NCBI GenBank assembly: GCA_025352375.1
Contig: JANXTL010000195.1
Span: forward strand, 1-41,870
DNA: 41,870 bases
Origin: Acetobacteraceae bacterium
Lineage (GTDB): Bacteria > Pseudomonadota > Alphaproteobacteria > Acetobacterales > Acetobacteraceae
Direction: 5' to 3'
Positions within the stretch are counted from its first letter, which is position 1, and every line of letters begins with the position of its first letter. The notes under the pieces are model-generated. The model saw only the letters and a program-made list of their open reading frames with translations, was not told the DNA's origin and searched no databases. Made by a program: the position numbers and the translations under genes. This document shows, in pieces, positions 2,143 to 38,763 of this stretch.

Positions 2143-4725
2143 ATGACCGAGTCCGAGATGAGCCACCCTCACGCTGGCGTATGCAACTGGGCCAGAGCCC
2201 TCGTGACCAGCGTGCTGACGATCGCCGGCTACGTGCTGGCCGGTTCGACGGCGCACGCCCAGCAGCCGGCCTGGAAAGGGCAATCGCCGCAATACGTGCA
2301 GTGTCCGTCGCCGTTCCAACCGCTGCTGCGGATTCCGGAAATCGTCGCCGCGGACGGCAAGTTACGCGGCACGATGCTATTGTCCAACAACACCAGCCGG
2401 ATGTACTTCGCGGCCACGGACCCGAGCCAATGCCTGGTGCAGGACGTTCGGCAGCTCAGCAGCCTGACGGCGGTGCTTCCGGCCTATCCAGGCGCCATCC
2501 CGCCCAATTACCCGAACTACGCGCCTCCGCCGCCTTTTCCCGGCTATGTGCCGCCGCCTCCCGTTGCGGTCACCGACCCAGTACCCGGCCCCACGCTGCG
2601 GGCACGTGTCGGGGATATCGTGGAACTGAGCTTTCTGAACCAGATCGGCAGCGGTCCGTATTGGGCGACGCAGGATCGCGGCGAGAAAGGCCTCGGCTGC
2701 GATCAAGCCTTCACTGGCCAGCCCCCGACGGCGATTTATCCAGGCAACGATCCGTTTCCCGATTGCTTCCATGGCTCGACCACGGGCAATATCCATTTCC
2801 ATGGGACGCATACCAATCCTGGTTCGACCGGCGACAATATCTTTATCGAGGTACGGCCGTCGCTGCGGGATGCCAGCGGCGCGCCAATCGTCACCCCGGC
2901 CAGCATAAAACAGCCGTTCGACCAATTTTTTGCCAATTGCGAAGCGCACCTGAAAAACAACGTTCTGTCGCAGTGGCCCAACAGGTGGAGCGATATGCCC
3001 GCCGCCTGGGCCGCCACCCAGAAAGCGCTGCTCCAGCGTTACGACCAGAATCCGACCATCGTCGCGAAACTATGGCCGGCCAACGCGGCCCAGCTGGCAG
3101 TCGGTGCATGGCCGGAATTTTCGATCGGCGCGACCCCATATTGTTTCCGCCTGCCGGAGTACACACCGCCCGGGCCGCACCAAACGGCGCATCCAGCCGC
3201 TCACAGCATGCCTGGCATGGAAGATACCCGTGCCCTGTTAATGGGGCAGGCACCTGGCACGCATTGGTATCACGCACATAAGCATGGTTCGACCGCGATC
3301 GACGTGTCGAACGGCATGGCCGGCGCTTTCATTATCGAGGGCCAGTACGACGACGCGCTGAACGCGTTTTATGGCACCGGCGCACCGGCTTCGACCTGGG
3401 CCAGGACGCAGCCGGTGATGGTGATCAATCAGTTGGGCACGCTACCCAATCTGTTCGTCGCCGGGAATGCCAATGGCCCGCTTCCGTTCTCGGTCAACGG
3501 GCGGATCGCGCCGACGGTCACCATGCAACCCGGCCAGGTTCAGTTGTGGCGTATCGTCAACGCGTCGTCCCGCAGCGGTGTGTACCTGGCTGGTTTCGCG
3601 CCGTACAATCCCAACCCGCAAAACGCGACGTCGCCACCGGTTCCGCCGGCCCCTCCGACCGCGCCCAGCGCGCCCCAGGTCTTCGCGTGGAAACAGACCG
3701 CGCAGGATGGCGTGCAGTTCAATGGTTCCAACTATCAGAACAGCGTAAGCCCGACATTGATGATCGCATCGGGTAACCGAGCGGACCTGCTGGTTCAGGC
3801 GCCGTCTGCGGCTGGTACCTACGTGCTGCTGGCCGGCGGGGTTATCAGTCGGTGCATGACCGTGGCAGCCCAAAATCCCGCCTTCGTGCCGACGATACCG
3901 GTGGCGTCGAAGACCGGGCCAGCATTACCAATCTGCCCGACGCCGGGGCTGACACCGTTGTTGATCGTGACAGTCACCGGTTCGCCCGCCACGGGCCCGC
4001 TGGCACAATTCATACCGCCAGCCAACCTCGATAAGGTGTTCCCGACTTTCCTGAGCGACATTAAAGACTCGGAGGTGAGGGGGACGAAGACAATCGTCTT
4101 CGACACCACGCGCACCGGCGGCAAACCCTCGACCGTCCATACCATCGACGGCCACAGGTTCGACGGCAATATCGGCGCGGTCGTTCTCCTCAACAATGCC
4201 GAGGAATGGAAGATCGAAAACCGGACGGTCTTCGGCGAATTCACCGCCGGCGCGCCCGCCAGGCCGAAAGGCCCGCCCGGCGAGGTCATCGATCACCCGT
4301 TCCATATCCATATCAACCCGTTCCAGATCGTGGAGTTCTTCGATCCGAATGAAGTGCTGATGCCGTTGGGCATCATGAAATACGTCTTCTACCAGGGGCC
4401 GGCGCCGACCAATTTGCAGCCGGGCCAGTGCGCTTTGGATATCGATAAGCCCGATAGCTGGAAGCCGTGCGGCACATCGCCGCCAGGGAGCCCAATCTGG
4501 TGGGATGTGTTCGCGATCCCCTCGGCACGAGCGGTTTATGTTCCCACAGGCGGCGCTTCGCCGACCGGTGTCGTGGTTGTCCCGGGCTACTTCAAAATGC
4601 GCAGCCGCTTCGTCGATTTTACCGGCCAGTATGTCATCCATTGCCACATCCTGGCGCACGAGGACCGGGGCATGATGACGGTGGTGGATGTGGTGCCGTT
4701 CACGACGCCTTACTCCCATCACTAG
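2143..4725 (+). CDS. Secreted multicopper oxidase, laccase/bilirubin-oxidase-like
   Basis: The 860-residue protein begins with a Sec-type signal (hydrophobic about 18-36, likely cleavage after AHA near residue 39), so it is periplasmic or exported. All four copper motifs are visible: HFHGTH (H218-H223), HWYHAHKHG (from H374), HPFHIH (from H718) and HCHILAHEDRGMM (H833, C834, H835 and following, including the type 1 Cys and Met). The trinuclear and type 1 centres therefore look complete, and oxidation of a phenol or metal with reduction of O2 to water is expected; the substrate is unknown. It is longer than the usual 500-650 residues because of Pro-rich (YAPPPPFPGYVPPPPV) and inter-domain insertions. 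GGGAG precedes the ATG. Its TAG stop overlaps the left end of a MITE-like element. Confidence 0.9.
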   Translation: MTESEMSHPHAGVCNWARALVTSVLTIAGYVLAGSTAHAQQPAWKGQSPQYVQCPSPFQPLLRIPEIVAADGKLRGTMLLSNNTSRMYFAATDPSQCLVQDVRQLSSLTAVLPAYPGAIPPNYPNYAPPPPFPGYVPPPPVAVTDPVPGPTLRARVGDIVELSFLNQIGSGPYWATQDRGEKGLGCDQAFTGQPPTAIYPGNDPFPDCFHGSTTGNIHFHGTHTNPGSTGDNIFIEVRPSLRDASGAPIVTPASIKQPFDQFFANCEAHLKNNVLSQWPNRWSDMPAAWAATQKALLQRYDQNPTIVAKLWPANAAQLAVGAWPEFSIGATPYCFRLPEYTPPGPHQTAHPAAHSMPGMEDTRALLMGQAPGTHWYHAHKHGSTAIDVSNGMAGAFIIEGQYDDALNAFYGTGAPASTWARTQPVMVINQLGTLPNLFVAGNANGPLPFSVNGRIAPTVTMQPGQVQLWRIVNASSRSGVYLAGFAPYNPNPQNATSPPVPPAPPTAPSAPQVFAWKQTAQDGVQFNGSNYQNSVSPTLMIASGNRADLLVQAPSAAGTYVLLAGGVISRCMTVAAQNPAFVPTIPVASKTGPALPICPTPGLTPLLIVTVTGSPATGPLAQFIPPANLDKVFPTFLSDIKDSEVRGTKTIVFDTTRTGGKPSTVHTIDGHRFDGNIGAVVLLNNAEEWKIENRTVFGEFTAGAPARPKGPPGEVIDHPFHIHINPFQIVEFFDPNEVLMPLGIMKYVFYQGPAPTNLQPGQCALDIDKPDSWKPCGTSPPGSPIWWDVFAIPSARAVYVPTGGASPTGVVVVPGYFKMRSRFVDFTGQYVIHCHILAHEDRGMMTVVDVVPFTTPYSHH

Positions 4726-4839
4726 AGCGTGATCGCCTGAGGTTGACTTCAACCTCGGGCGTGAATCACCCTCTCAAACAAAGGCTTAGACCATGATCCA
4801 ACGCCGAGATCGCGTGCAACCTCAAACGATCATGGTCTA
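4723..4839 (+). mobile_element. MITE-like element, copy A (in the oxidase stop codon)
   Basis: This 117-bp element runs from TA to TA. Its left end TAGAGCGTGATCG and right end (read inward) TAGACCATGATCG form imperfect terminal inverted repeats (11 of 13). Inside it carries a GAGGTTGA/TCAACCTC hairpin and a second internal inverted repeat, TAGACCATGATC (4787-4798) with GATCATGGTCTA (4828-4839). It has no transposase gene. TA-bounded ends are typical of elements moved by IS630/Tc1-mariner-type transposases (inference). Copies B and C, at about 16.75 and 17.35 kb, differ from it at only one or two positions. It occupies nearly the whole gap between the oxidase and the methyltransferase. Confidence 0.85.
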
Positions 4840-16690: not shown

Positions 16691-16751
16691 ATGGCCCTTG
16701 CACCAATTCAATTCAGATTTGTCTATCAGCCCACGGACAAATCCAACGCGC

Positions 16752-16868
16752 TAGAGCGTGATCGCCTGAGGTTGACTTCAACCTCGGGCGTGAATCACCC
16801 TCTCAAACAAAGGCTTAGACCATGATCCTACGCCGAGATCGCATGCAACCTCAAACGATCATGGTCTA
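16752..16868 (+). mobile_element. MITE-like element, copy B
   Basis: This 117-bp element has the same orientation as copy A and differs from it at two positions (T for A in GATCCTACG, A for G in CGCATGC). It is bounded by TA at 16752-16753 and 16867-16868, and interrupts codon 21 of the broken gene after Ala20. Confidence 0.85.
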
Positions 16869-17349
16869 AATGCTTATGACGCTGGCCTAGCATTGTATGG
16901 CATAGGGCGAAGCATGTCCATCGCAACTCACTACGTAACAAGCGGGAGGGTCATCAAACAAGCCCCGTCGTTAGACGGCGCGCGGGTTCTCATCATGCCG
17001 CCCCAACCGGGAAGCTTTGCATTCCTCACACTCATTGAGATCGCTTCAGTCGCTTCAGGCTTGGCCCTCGGAGTAGCCGGAAATCTTCTAACTGACCTTG
17101 TAAAATTCATGTATCGTCGAGGAGCTGGCCTTACTGACCAGCCGAAAGACTCTCAGGACTCTCACTTGCAGGGTATATTACGACGAAGCCCCGGTGACAT
17201 CGATGCTCTAAATGACGCCATTGACGAAGATATGGTGAGAATCCACAGGCCCTTCGAAGGCCCGGTCAACGTTCTTAATATATATGGAGGCACCGTTCAT
17301 ATCGGCACCTTTAACCACTCCACATATGCATACACGCGCGCGCGTGACT

Positions 17350-17466
17350 TAGACCATGATCTTTTGAGGTTGCACGCGATCTCGGCGTTGGATCATGGTC
17401 TAAGCCTTTGTTTGAGAGGGTGATTCACGCCCGAGGTTGAAGTCAACCTCAGGCGATCACGCTCTA
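17350..17466 (-). mobile_element. MITE-like element, copy C (inverted)
   Basis: This 117-bp element is inverted relative to copies A and B and differs from A at one internal position (AGATC for CGATC near the right end). TA dinucleotides bound it at 17350-17351 and 17465-17466. It splits the same gene that copy B interrupts and shifts the reading frame by one. Confidence 0.85.
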
Positions 17467-17748
17467 GGCAAAGACCGCGAAGAATTTTACGGGAATGTGG
17501 CTTCTTATAATGGCAACGAAAATTCAGGCAGACTATGGCTTGTTGATGAACAACGGACCGTGGGCTTCAGAAGAGACAAGTCTTTGAAGCACCTGCCCCA
17601 AGAAGACCGCCAACTTCTGTCACGGAGCCTAGATCGATACGTGAACGGCCAGGATGGAAATATTACACTTAAAGGGCACGCCTTGCGGAATAGAGAGGGA
17701 AAGCTAAAAATGATTTTTCTAGTCAGTGTCTCTGAAGATGACGACTAG

Positions 17749-18036: not shown

Positions 18037-18477
18037 TTACCGACGATCGGCAGTCTGAAGCTCCGAAACCAACTCGGGATGCGTATCGAGCAAACGCAAA
18101 AGCTGAATCGTCGGACCGCTCGGTTCGATCAGGCTCCGCTCGTATTTGTCGAAAGCCCTGTCACCCACCCGGAACACCGCACCCGCCGCCCGCTGACTCA
18201 GCCGCAGCTTATGCCGAATACGCCGGATCGTCGCCGGCGCGGGCACGCCATCGACACGCTCCTTCAACGTACGCAACGCCTCCTCGGCGGCGGTCATATC
18301 GGAACCGACATGGATCGACTCGCCATCCCCCTCCGGATAGTAGCCCGGCAGATCGACAATCGCCTCCTGTCCCTTGTAGCGCACCGTGAACGGGCGCGTG
18401 TCCCGGCGCAACATTTGTCCGGTCTCGGGACAGGGCATGCTCGGCGGCAATACGGTTGCCTTATCAACCATCGTCAT
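18037..18477 (-). CDS. mqsA: MqsA-family antitoxin (HTH)
   Basis: The 146-residue protein has an MqsA-like N-terminal domain (CPETGQMLRRDTRPFTVRYKG, then DLPGYYPEGDGESIHVG) and a C-terminal XRE-type helix-turn-helix (about 85-140: IRHKLRLSQRAAGAVF, FDKYERSLIEPSG, TIQLLRLLDTHPEL), which matches the DNA-binding half of E. coli MqsA closely in pattern. The zinc-binding CxxC pairs of E. coli MqsA are missing (CPET and YYPEG), as in a zinc-less subfamily. Its ATG overlaps the toxin stop (ATGA), the standard mqsRA order. It probably autorepresses the operon. The toxin upstream is frameshifted, so this antitoxin may be orphaned in function. Confidence 0.8.
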   Translation of the reverse strand: MTMVDKATVLPPSMPCPETGQMLRRDTRPFTVRYKGQEAIVDLPGYYPEGDGESIHVGSDMTAAEEALRTLKERVDGVPAPATIRRIRHKLRLSQRAAGAVFRVGDRAFDKYERSLIEPSGPTIQLLRLLDTHPELVSELQTADRR

Positions 18478-18778
18478 CTCTCCTTGAACGACATCAGCCG
18501 AAACTCGGTCACCACATCAGCCTGGAATTTGATGTAGAGAACCGCCCCTCCGGTCGGGACATGATAGACATCTTGCCATGTCCGGTGATCGGCATACGTC
18601 GTCATCGACTTAAGAACATCGGACTCAGAATCTCCTGAATGACGTCCGCGATGCCGGCACGGCTGAAGCCCATGGACAAGGCGTCGGCGAAGGCCGATCG
18701 CGTGATGGCCAACGTCTCCGGGAAGCCGATGGCCGCCTTGATCGCGTCCAGGTTATAGGTCGGGCGCCGCTTTTCCAT
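18474..18778 (-). pseudogene. mqsR: MqsR-family toxin (mRNA interferase), frameshifted
   Basis: The N-terminal half, MEKRRPTYNLDAIKAAIG... to ILSPMF, reads from the ATG at 18778 and runs into TGA at 18602-18604. The C-terminal half continues in the -1 frame from about 18612: KSMTTYADHRTWQDVYHV, then LYIKFQADVV and LMSFKER, stopping at 18474. Together they match E. coli MqsR end to end (about 101 residues versus 98), including the KSMTTY.DH..WQDVY segment with catalytic Lys and Gln. One base is missing at the TTC TTA AGT site. No convincing slippery heptamer is present, so mutation is likelier than programmed frameshifting. A sequencing error cannot be excluded. Confidence 0.8.
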
Positions 18779-18850
18779 CAATCGAGAGTATGCCACCATA
18801 AAGGTGTCAAAACAAGGATTATCGCGGTCGCACACGCGGAAAGCCGTGGG

Positions 18851-18898
18851 TGCCGGCATCCGCCGGCATGACGGTGTGGACCGGCATGACGGTGTGGA
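18851..18898. repeat. REP-like hairpin followed by an 18-bp tandem repeat
   Basis: TGCCGGC (18851-18857) and GCCGGCA (18862-18868) form a perfect 7-bp stem with a 4-base loop. This sits in the GTGGGTGCCGGC...GGCATGACG context of the widely dispersed proteobacterial palindromic repeats. The unit CCGGCATGACGGTGTGGA then occurs twice in tandem (18863-18880 and 18881-18898). It lies between mqsR and the downstream end of the hydrolase-cyclase gene. Confidence 0.6.
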
Positions 18899-36872: not shown

Positions 36873-37364
36873 CTAACAAGCATCTCCCAGCTCGTGCGAC
36901 GTGCAAAGCGCCTCCTGCCTCTGGTGCTCCGTCAGCTTGAACGGCTGGCCCATATGCTGCACGCGTGCCTTGGCGCGGTCGCGGCCCTCCTCTGTCCTGG
37001 CGCGGATCAGCTCGCGCTCAAATTTGGCCGGGCCGCCGAGCACGGTCAGCATCAAGCCAGCGTGCGCCGTGGTAGTATCCACCCAGTTTTCACCGATGGA
37101 TCGGAAACCAGCCTTGCGCTCGACAATGGTGGCGAGCGTGTTCAACATGTCGCGGGTCGAGCGCGCCAGCCGGTGAAGCCGCGTCACCACCATCACGTCG
37201 TCGGCCTCGAGCGCGGCCCGCGCCTTGATAAGCTGGGCGCGATGGGTCTTCGCTCCGCTCGCGGTCTCACGGAACACCTTCTTGCGTCCGGCCTTGGTTA
37301 GTTGGCTCACCTGAGCGTCAACGCATTGGCCGTCCATGGATACCCTGGCGTAACCGTATTTCAT
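36873..37364 (-). CDS. Serine recombinase (resolvase/invertase), lacking the HTH
   Basis: The 163-residue protein starts MKYGYARVSMDGQ with the catalytic Ser9 and has VTRLHRLARSTRDMLNTL (active-site Arg pair) and KFERELIRARTEEGRDRA, the long E-helix region. The family normally continues with a C-terminal helix-turn-helix of about 40 residues, but here it stops after KLTEHQRQEALCTSHELGDAC. The DNA-binding part is therefore missing or truncated. It is typical of Tn3 resolvases and plasmid invertases, so it is likely a relic of a mobile element. It is divergent from the antitoxin gene at 37539. Confidence 0.85.
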   Translation of the reverse strand: MKYGYARVSMDGQCVDAQVSQLTKAGRKKVFRETASGAKTHRAQLIKARAALEADDVMVVTRLHRLARSTRDMLNTLATIVERKAGFRSIGENWVDTTTAHAGLMLTVLGGPAKFERELIRARTEEGRDRAKARVQHMGQPFKLTEHQRQEALCTSHELGDAC

Positions 37365-38259: not shown

Positions 38260-38763
38260 ATGCCCCGCGCACCCATCCACCCCGGCGAACACCGCGCGGA
38301 AGAACGACGCGGACTGAACATGAGCGCGGCCGAACTCGCCCACCAACGCGACGTCCCAGTCAATCGCGTAACCCAGATTCTGAACGGCCATCGCTCCGTC
38401 ACCGCCGATACGGCGCTGCACCTCGGACACTGGTTCGGAACAGGGCCGGAAATCTCGCTCAACCTGCAACAGATCTACGAACTCTGCCACGCCGCCCCGA
38501 AGCCGCCTGACGCGCGGACCGCAAGCGTCGCATCATTTGAATACCGTTTCGTGTGTTCGGACGCTCACGCATTGCGTTTACCGCTTATGCGAAGCCCGGC
38601 TCAAAGCGAAAGGCTCTTATCGCGATGTTTGTTGGCTGACGAAATCTCTGTGGCTCAGTGTCTCTGTGTTAACGCTTCGCGGTCTCGCAACTATAGCCGC
38701 CGGCGACGGGGAGTCCGCTCAGCGATAACACAGAGACACCGACCAATAGAGATTTCAGCTTAG
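38260..38763 (+). CDS. higA: HigA-type antitoxin with an aberrant C-terminal extension
   Basis: The first about 77 residues are a HigA-family XRE antitoxin: MPRAPIHPGEHRAEERRGLN, MSAAELAHQRDVPVNRVTQI, LNGHRSVTADTALHLGHWFG, SLNLQQIYEL. After that the frame continues some 90 residues with no family resemblance, reading through an imperfect inverted repeat (38635-38759). The normal family ends about 20-25 residues after LYEL. No HigB toxin frame is visible upstream. It looks like a solitary antitoxin whose 3' end was replaced or frameshifted. Confidence 0.7.
   Translation: MPRAPIHPGEHRAEERRGLNMSAAELAHQRDVPVNRVTQILNGHRSVTADTALHLGHWFGTGPEISLNLQQIYELCHAAPKPPDARTASVASFEYRFVCSDAHALRLPLMRSPAQSERLLSRCLLADEISVAQCLCVNASRSRNYSRRRRGVRSAITQRHRPIEISA
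38635..38759. repeat. Imperfect inverted repeat, arms about 40 bp
   Basis: The left arm (38635-38675) and right arm (38722-38759) align as GCTGA(CG)AATCTCT... with a perfect 13-base core TGTCTCTGTGTTA (38659-38671 against 38726-38738). The spacer is 46 bases. The arms could be ends of a small mobile element. The CTCTGTG-rich sequence recalls a short motif dispersed in many bacterial genomes. It falls inside the extended tail of the higA frame. Confidence 0.65.

Follow-up and report, generated by a model that had tools for sequence, protein, structure and literature searches.

Two near-identical repeats in opposite orientation separate three short reading frames in an Acetobacteraceae genome, which raises the question whether the frames are pieces of one gene, what the repeats are, and why a single gene should have been hit twice. 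The stretch of DNA analysed here (the window, 41,870 nucleotides) is contig C172 of a 5.1-Mb assembly (G000; 355 contigs, 98% complete) and has a GC content of 64%. In the reading favoured here, to which we assign a probability of about 0.93, one high-copy IS630-type MITE, moved by an IS630 transposase into a YTAR target, inserted into the gene on two separate occasions and broke it. The features discussed are collected in Table 1.

Table 1. Features of the window, with positions counted from its first base
Feature	Position	Strand	Remarks
MITE copy 1, on the TAG stop of a multicopper oxidase gene (2143-4725)	4723..4839	+	1 mismatch to the consensus
First gene piece, ATG up to the first element	16691..16751	+	21 residues; weak match to L039 residues 1-17
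MITE copy 2, left module (64 bp) first	16752..16868	+	117 bp; 1 mismatch to the 59-copy consensus; site C-TA-A
Middle gene piece, DUF7946-type	16869..17349	+	PF25678, 1.1e-12, 48.8 bits; L039 residues 20-183
MITE copy 3	17350..17466	-	117 bp; 2 mismatches to the consensus; site T-TA-G on the + strand
Last gene piece including the stop codon, DUF7947-like	17467..17748	+	PF25679, 7.6e-4, 19.9 bits; L039 residues 184-272
MqsA-like antitoxin gene	18037..18477	-	adjoins the broken gene
MqsR-like gene	18602..18859	-	adjoins the broken gene; match spans only profile positions 1-51 of 95
Serine resolvase-type recombinase gene	36873..37364	-	PF00239, 6e-33
Imperfect inverted repeat	38641..38756		46-nt arms, 83% complementary; by eye unrelated to the MITE

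Three gene pieces and their frames

A first-pass annotation of this DNA had described two oppositely oriented MITE copies inside one gene, and a repeat search recovered the pair as arms at 16751-16869 and 17349-17467 with 97% complementarity. The same search places a further copy, absent from that annotation, at about 4722-4839. The annotation had also given coordinates for the removal of 115 bp at each site; these and the arithmetic are right, as each copy measures 117 bp with both of its TAs and adds a net 115 bp when one TA is kept. As an insertion of 115 bp demands, each element displaces the reading frame by one base from one piece to the next, in agreement with the claimed frameshifts. 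In the present state, the frame of the first piece enters the first element and stops after 44 codons at 16825, and that of the middle piece meets a stop inside the second element, at 17423.

The pieces were searched by blastp separately and unjoined against an intact homologue of 273 aa (L039). The middle piece is 53% identical to its part of this protein (1e-58) and the last piece 43% identical over 90 positions (1e-24). On L039 the two abut exactly (183/184), and on L038 and L040 they do so nearly. In phrog_13337, a phage-protein family of 275 positions, the middle piece falls at 26-180 and the last at 186-273 (2.7e-13), in order, and the close intact homologues are single frames of 273-277 aa. 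The first piece, with its 21 residues, gave a weak match to L039 (E 0.012) and, among the matches listed, none to the other four homologues. Its shortness and weak match would suit an explanation in which the pieces are separate genes, or the gene by nature stops where the elements lie, and the matching frames are due to chance. This explanation is already contradicted at the second junction by the L039 and phrog_13337 matches, and we consider it extremely improbable. A break of the homologues at the junctions had been named beforehand as the observation that would count against a single gene, and the homologues run straight through both. The three pieces were thus once one DUF7946/DUF7947-type gene that was interrupted by two MITE copies.

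The guess that the protein would belong to a DUF7946/7947-like family holds for DUF7946. The DUF7946 match exceeds the cut-off of 27 bits, spans positions 25-165 of the 183 in the profile, and reaches 62 bits in a six-frame genome search. The DUF7947 score lies below the Pfam cut-off of 27 bits; it comes from the same piece that aligns with the intact homologue over 90 positions. For the C-terminal domain a structural model predicts an OB-like barrel. DUF7946 was not mentioned in the open-licence papers searched. Within the order, few genomes have the family (6 of 299, this one included), and it is absent from the eight other genomes of the genus drawn in that survey. No relative was found to carry this DUF7946 gene at the corresponding position, so that the empty state of both gene sites rests on the frames and on distant homologues. 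These homologues sit among unrelated neighbour genes. With a GC content of 47-52% as against 64% for the window, the gene looks foreign and AT-rich. The neighbouring MqsR-like gene may be incomplete, because its match covers only about the first half of the profile. As a broken gene, the locus is an ordinary case.

That each site originally held a single TA, as the first-pass annotation had it, is supported by the frame arithmetic, by the uninterrupted homologues, and by an element-free site at copy 1: in genome G318 the same TAG stop is present with a single TA and without the element, with some other change downstream. In a second comparison, of contig C190 of this genome with contig C109 of G307, the element-free relative had diverged at the junction and the TA itself was not visible.

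A high-copy MITE

The repeat is an IS630-type (Tc1/mariner group) MITE, being short, without a transposase gene, present in many copies, and flanked by a duplicated TA. REP/REPIN elements with RAYT were considered and rejected, judged on the duplication criterion alone, as TA duplication is supported here and REP/REPIN have none. The left end of the element reads TAGAGCGTGATCGCC and the right end TAGACCATGATCG. The element is built of a left module of 64 bp and a right module of 53 bp, both able to fold into a hairpin, and its fold z-scores are -6.1 as DNA and -7.5 as RNA. When eleven relatives of the left module, taken from nine other genomes and from the window, were compared, the stem was kept with two-sided changes at 6 pairs in 12 cells, a cell count matched by none of 500 shuffles; because the compared sequences are related, this covariation is support for the stem and not proof.

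A 23-mer from the left end, searched with at most two mismatches, has 352 matches in the 5.1-Mb genome, and the reversed control pattern has none. The number of left ends is not the number of elements, because tandem copies carry more than one. A sample of 665,101 bp, which includes stretches fetched around known copies, contained 76 clusters; 59 of these are single 117-bp copies, and the rest are tandem arrays, truncated pieces, and copies at contig edges. All 59 full copies have TA at both ends, the cluster search having been seeded on such ends. Twenty-eight of them match the consensus exactly and the largest divergence is 6 changes, which fits the recent activity that the first-pass annotation had proposed. 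Of the 32 other genomes of the genus, 16 contain related elements (E up to 0.001), with an identity of 99-100% in G307 and, among the matches listed, about 72-90% elsewhere.

Several other arrangements of the modules were seen. In four 117-bp variants (G000:C57:8600-8716, C5:10334-10450, C30:2720-2836, and C355:7565-7681) the left type of end (GCTCTA) is found on the right as well, which makes both ends alike. L042, L043, L044, and L045 are head-to-tail arrays of only the 64-bp left module and frequently lie at the ends of contigs; the repeat therefore breaks the assembly. L134 (contig C209 of this genome) and L248 (contig C162 of G307) are identical up to and through the element and diverge inside a tandem array, which means that either the two recombined at the repeat or the assembly was joined there.

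The target site

A pyrimidine precedes the left TA in 57 of 57 copies, and a purine follows the right TA in 59 of 59. YTAR was accordingly present at 58 of 58 sites in this genome with both bases known (CTAA/TTAG 31, CTAG 19, TTAA 8), against a background of 11% among all NTAN sites of the same sequence. The rule was obeyed at 20 of 21 sites in G307 and, for the diverged elements of G308 and G316 together, at 15 of 16; from the latter set, four of the 20 further rows were dropped, three with no TA end found and one at a contig edge. The target of the element is YTAR, which is new here. That IS630 prefers CTAG is known; for IS630 of Shigella sonnei the target is reported as the TA in CTAG (Tenzen and Ohtsubo 1991, cited in PMC2170065).

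These sites bear on whether the element moves at all. If the elements were immobile now, the copies would have spread by recombination or horizontal transfer, and the gene would have arrived already broken. Some copies are indeed arranged in tandem, or have long flanks identical to those on a contig of another species, and the gene has the foreign look described above. Recombination, however, does not give a strict 4-bp target at every site with flanks that are otherwise unlike, the large share of consensus-identical copies speaks against it as well, and the elements in the gene belong to the host's own family. Immobility is therefore held to be improbable, and separate insertions of a mobile MITE remain the favoured reading.

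Two insertions in one gene

The gene pieces contain 13 YTAR sites in 824 bp, or 15.8 per kb, as compared to 1.93 per kb in the sample, which amounts to eight times the sampled genome mean. Only 1 of 1477 windows of 830 bp reached 13 YTAR sites, and that window is possibly the gene itself. Occupancy was determined on an arithmetic sample of 33 contigs (282,385 bp), in which 16 clusters and 432 free sites correspond to an occupancy of 3.6%. At this rate, 0.46 insertions are expected for 13 sites and the probability of two or more is 0.08, whereas a rate uniform per base gives 0.001. Because the gene carries so many YTAR sites, two insertions are unremarkable and no special attraction is needed. 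Since the occupancy rate includes selection, a dispensable gene would expect still more insertions. Low-GC flanks show no higher occupancy per YTAR site (4/80 versus 73/1045, P 0.65), so that the gene is special only in the number of its sites. The first-pass annotation had put the double hit down to a preferred target or to loss of selection. A preferred target does exist in the form of YTAR, but the gene as such is not preferred.

Copies at stop codons

A codon model, for which 337 long frames of this genome served as training set, was used to score the flanks of the copies, and both flanks were long enough for 42 of the 59 copies. A coding frame ends exactly at the TA of the element in 17 of these 42, as compared to 79 of 919 free YTAR sites (Fisher 8e-8); at other thresholds the counts were 18 versus 94 and 14 versus 58. 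With a purine following the TA, such a site before insertion would have carried TAA or TAG in that frame, a native stop codon, whose place is now taken by the TAG of the element. As TAG begins both ends of the element, a stop is always restored when it inserts into a stop codon. Ten of the 24 frames of stop-occupied genes were checked; all ten contain a Pfam domain, and in eight the match comes within 7 positions of the end of the profile. In G307, 12 of 18 copies with both flanks sit at stop codons, and in G308 and G316 together 7 of 15. Pooled over the four genomes, 37 of 75 copies lie exactly on a native stop codon, this genome contributing 18 of 42 at another setting. At a further site (L261, G307 C109, about 634-750) the element splits a TAATG stop/start overlap, with TAG before it and ATG right after, and both codons are kept. 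A search of titles and abstracts in the open-licence literature found no report of stop-codon targeting by MITEs or IS elements. The stop-codon habit is new here and is the part worth following up.

Two explanations of this excess were weighed. Selection alone may produce it, if insertion into YTAR is random and the copies at stop codons survive; this is reasonably probable. Purging is visible in that only 1 of the 42 copies lies inside a recognised gene, versus 228 of 919 free sites, although true intragenic copies are more numerous than this one, because the codon model misses foreign genes and scored both copies in the broken gene as noncoding. Against an origin in selection only, stop sites are occupied more often than YTAR sites without a coding signal on either side (18/107 versus 12/234, Fisher 8e-4, and similarly at two other settings), a comparison class that is itself not clean, since the codon score misses foreign genes. 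The excess over noncoding YTAR hints at a choice of target beyond selection but is no proof of it.

Such a choice could be a habit of this IS630-type MITE family tuned to the genetic code, in which the transposase seeks gene ends through YTAR and some further feature of the 3' end. YTAR would then matter in that it holds two of the three stop codons, TAA and TAG, after a pyrimidine, and hardly occurs in frame in GC-rich coding DNA except at stops and rare Leu codons. We regard this tuned habit as a speculative and rather unlikely reading.

A candidate mover among IS630 elements

At the edge of contig G000:C239, the end of an IS630 transposase gene of this genome carries the terminal sequence TAGAGCATGATTGTTTTAGGTTGC, which agrees with the right end of the MITE in 21 of 24 positions. 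In G316 there is a complete IS630 of 1,060 bp (L144), and its two ends match the left end of the MITE at 20/24 and 21/24. None of 20,000 shuffles per end reached these values of 20-21, and the ends of two unrelated IS630 elements, taken as controls, match at 12/24 and 8/24. The G316 transposase scores 148 bits against the NCBIfam IS630 model NF033545 (cut-off 100). In total, nine transposase ends of the genus were compared with the MITE, taken from the 12 of 25 related loci that show a TIR-like end, with the ends of L174, L191, L194, and L199 not included; the other 13 of the 25 loci examined have no such end. By these alignments, the MITE has terminal sequences in common with IS630 elements of this genome and of the genus.

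A complete IS630 partner was not found in this genome, where the matching IS630 is the end at the contig edge. The only complete element among the five candidate transposases of the genome, at G000:C150, was rejected as it has other ends (TAGATCATCGCGG, 12/24 matches). When five genomes were searched with the first half of the transposase from G316, the outcome was one short match of 40% identity, in another context and unrelated-looking.

Discussion

The events at this locus may be pictured as follows. An IS630 transposase would recognise the ends of the MITE and excise it, and the excised element would be joined to the TA within a YTAR site with duplication of the TA. Each insertion adds 115 bp and shifts the frame, and a stop codon within the element ends translation. 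Being foreign and AT-rich, the gene is rich in YTAR sites and was easily hit. Once it had taken one insertion, the other would be free of cost. Most other copies would survive at harmless sites, above all at native stop codons, where the stop is restored by the TAG that either end of the element supplies. Mobilisation in trans, the order of the insertions, and their neutrality are predicted features of this course of events.

Among known systems, the kind that the MITE most resembles is RUP. This repeat unit of pneumococcus is described as a 107-bp element of about 110 copies, mobilised by IS630-Spn1; its TIRs resemble an IS630 of the same genome, it targets TA, and one copy is reported to split a gene (PMC3049150, PMC2229807). 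In size the two are close (107 bp as against 117 bp here), and the likeness is one of kind, drawn from the published descriptions. RUP resides in a different host and is described as favouring IS elements, and the descriptions in these two papers give no YTAR or stop-codon preference (PMC3049150, PMC2229807). Transposons of the ISY100/IS630 family are described with a DDE transposase, a TA duplication, and a preference centred on CTAG (PMC2170065), features that resemble the system of the MITE. Unlike these transposons, the MITE is geneless and its target is wider, CTAG making up a minority of its sites.

Two other small elements share fewer traits. MITEPsy1 of Pseudomonas syringae is a 100-bp MITE, its movement was demonstrated by its authors, and its site, given as CTAG or YTAA, is near YTAR; in contrast to the MITE described here, it is reported with a 4-bp duplication, IS5-like (ISPsy2) ends, and a low copy number (PMC3189936). 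Correia/NEMIS elements of Neisseria are likewise small, TA-ended, and hairpin-forming, and are also found inside genes, but as described they differ in having a 24-bp TIR, size classes of 107 and 155 bp, and another host and sequence (PMC2229807).

The locus provides a clean case of one gene broken twice by a MITE, explained by the density of target sites and not by special attraction. It calls for caution in annotation, as this one element terminates many genes precisely at the native stop codon, and in assembly, as two-species contigs can join at such repeats. A target that overlaps stop codons, combined with ends that carry a stop, is a possible simple route to a high transposon copy number. 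If the tuned habit were true, hundreds of copies would be carried without harm to the host, and AT-rich foreign genes such as the one broken here would be the exception.
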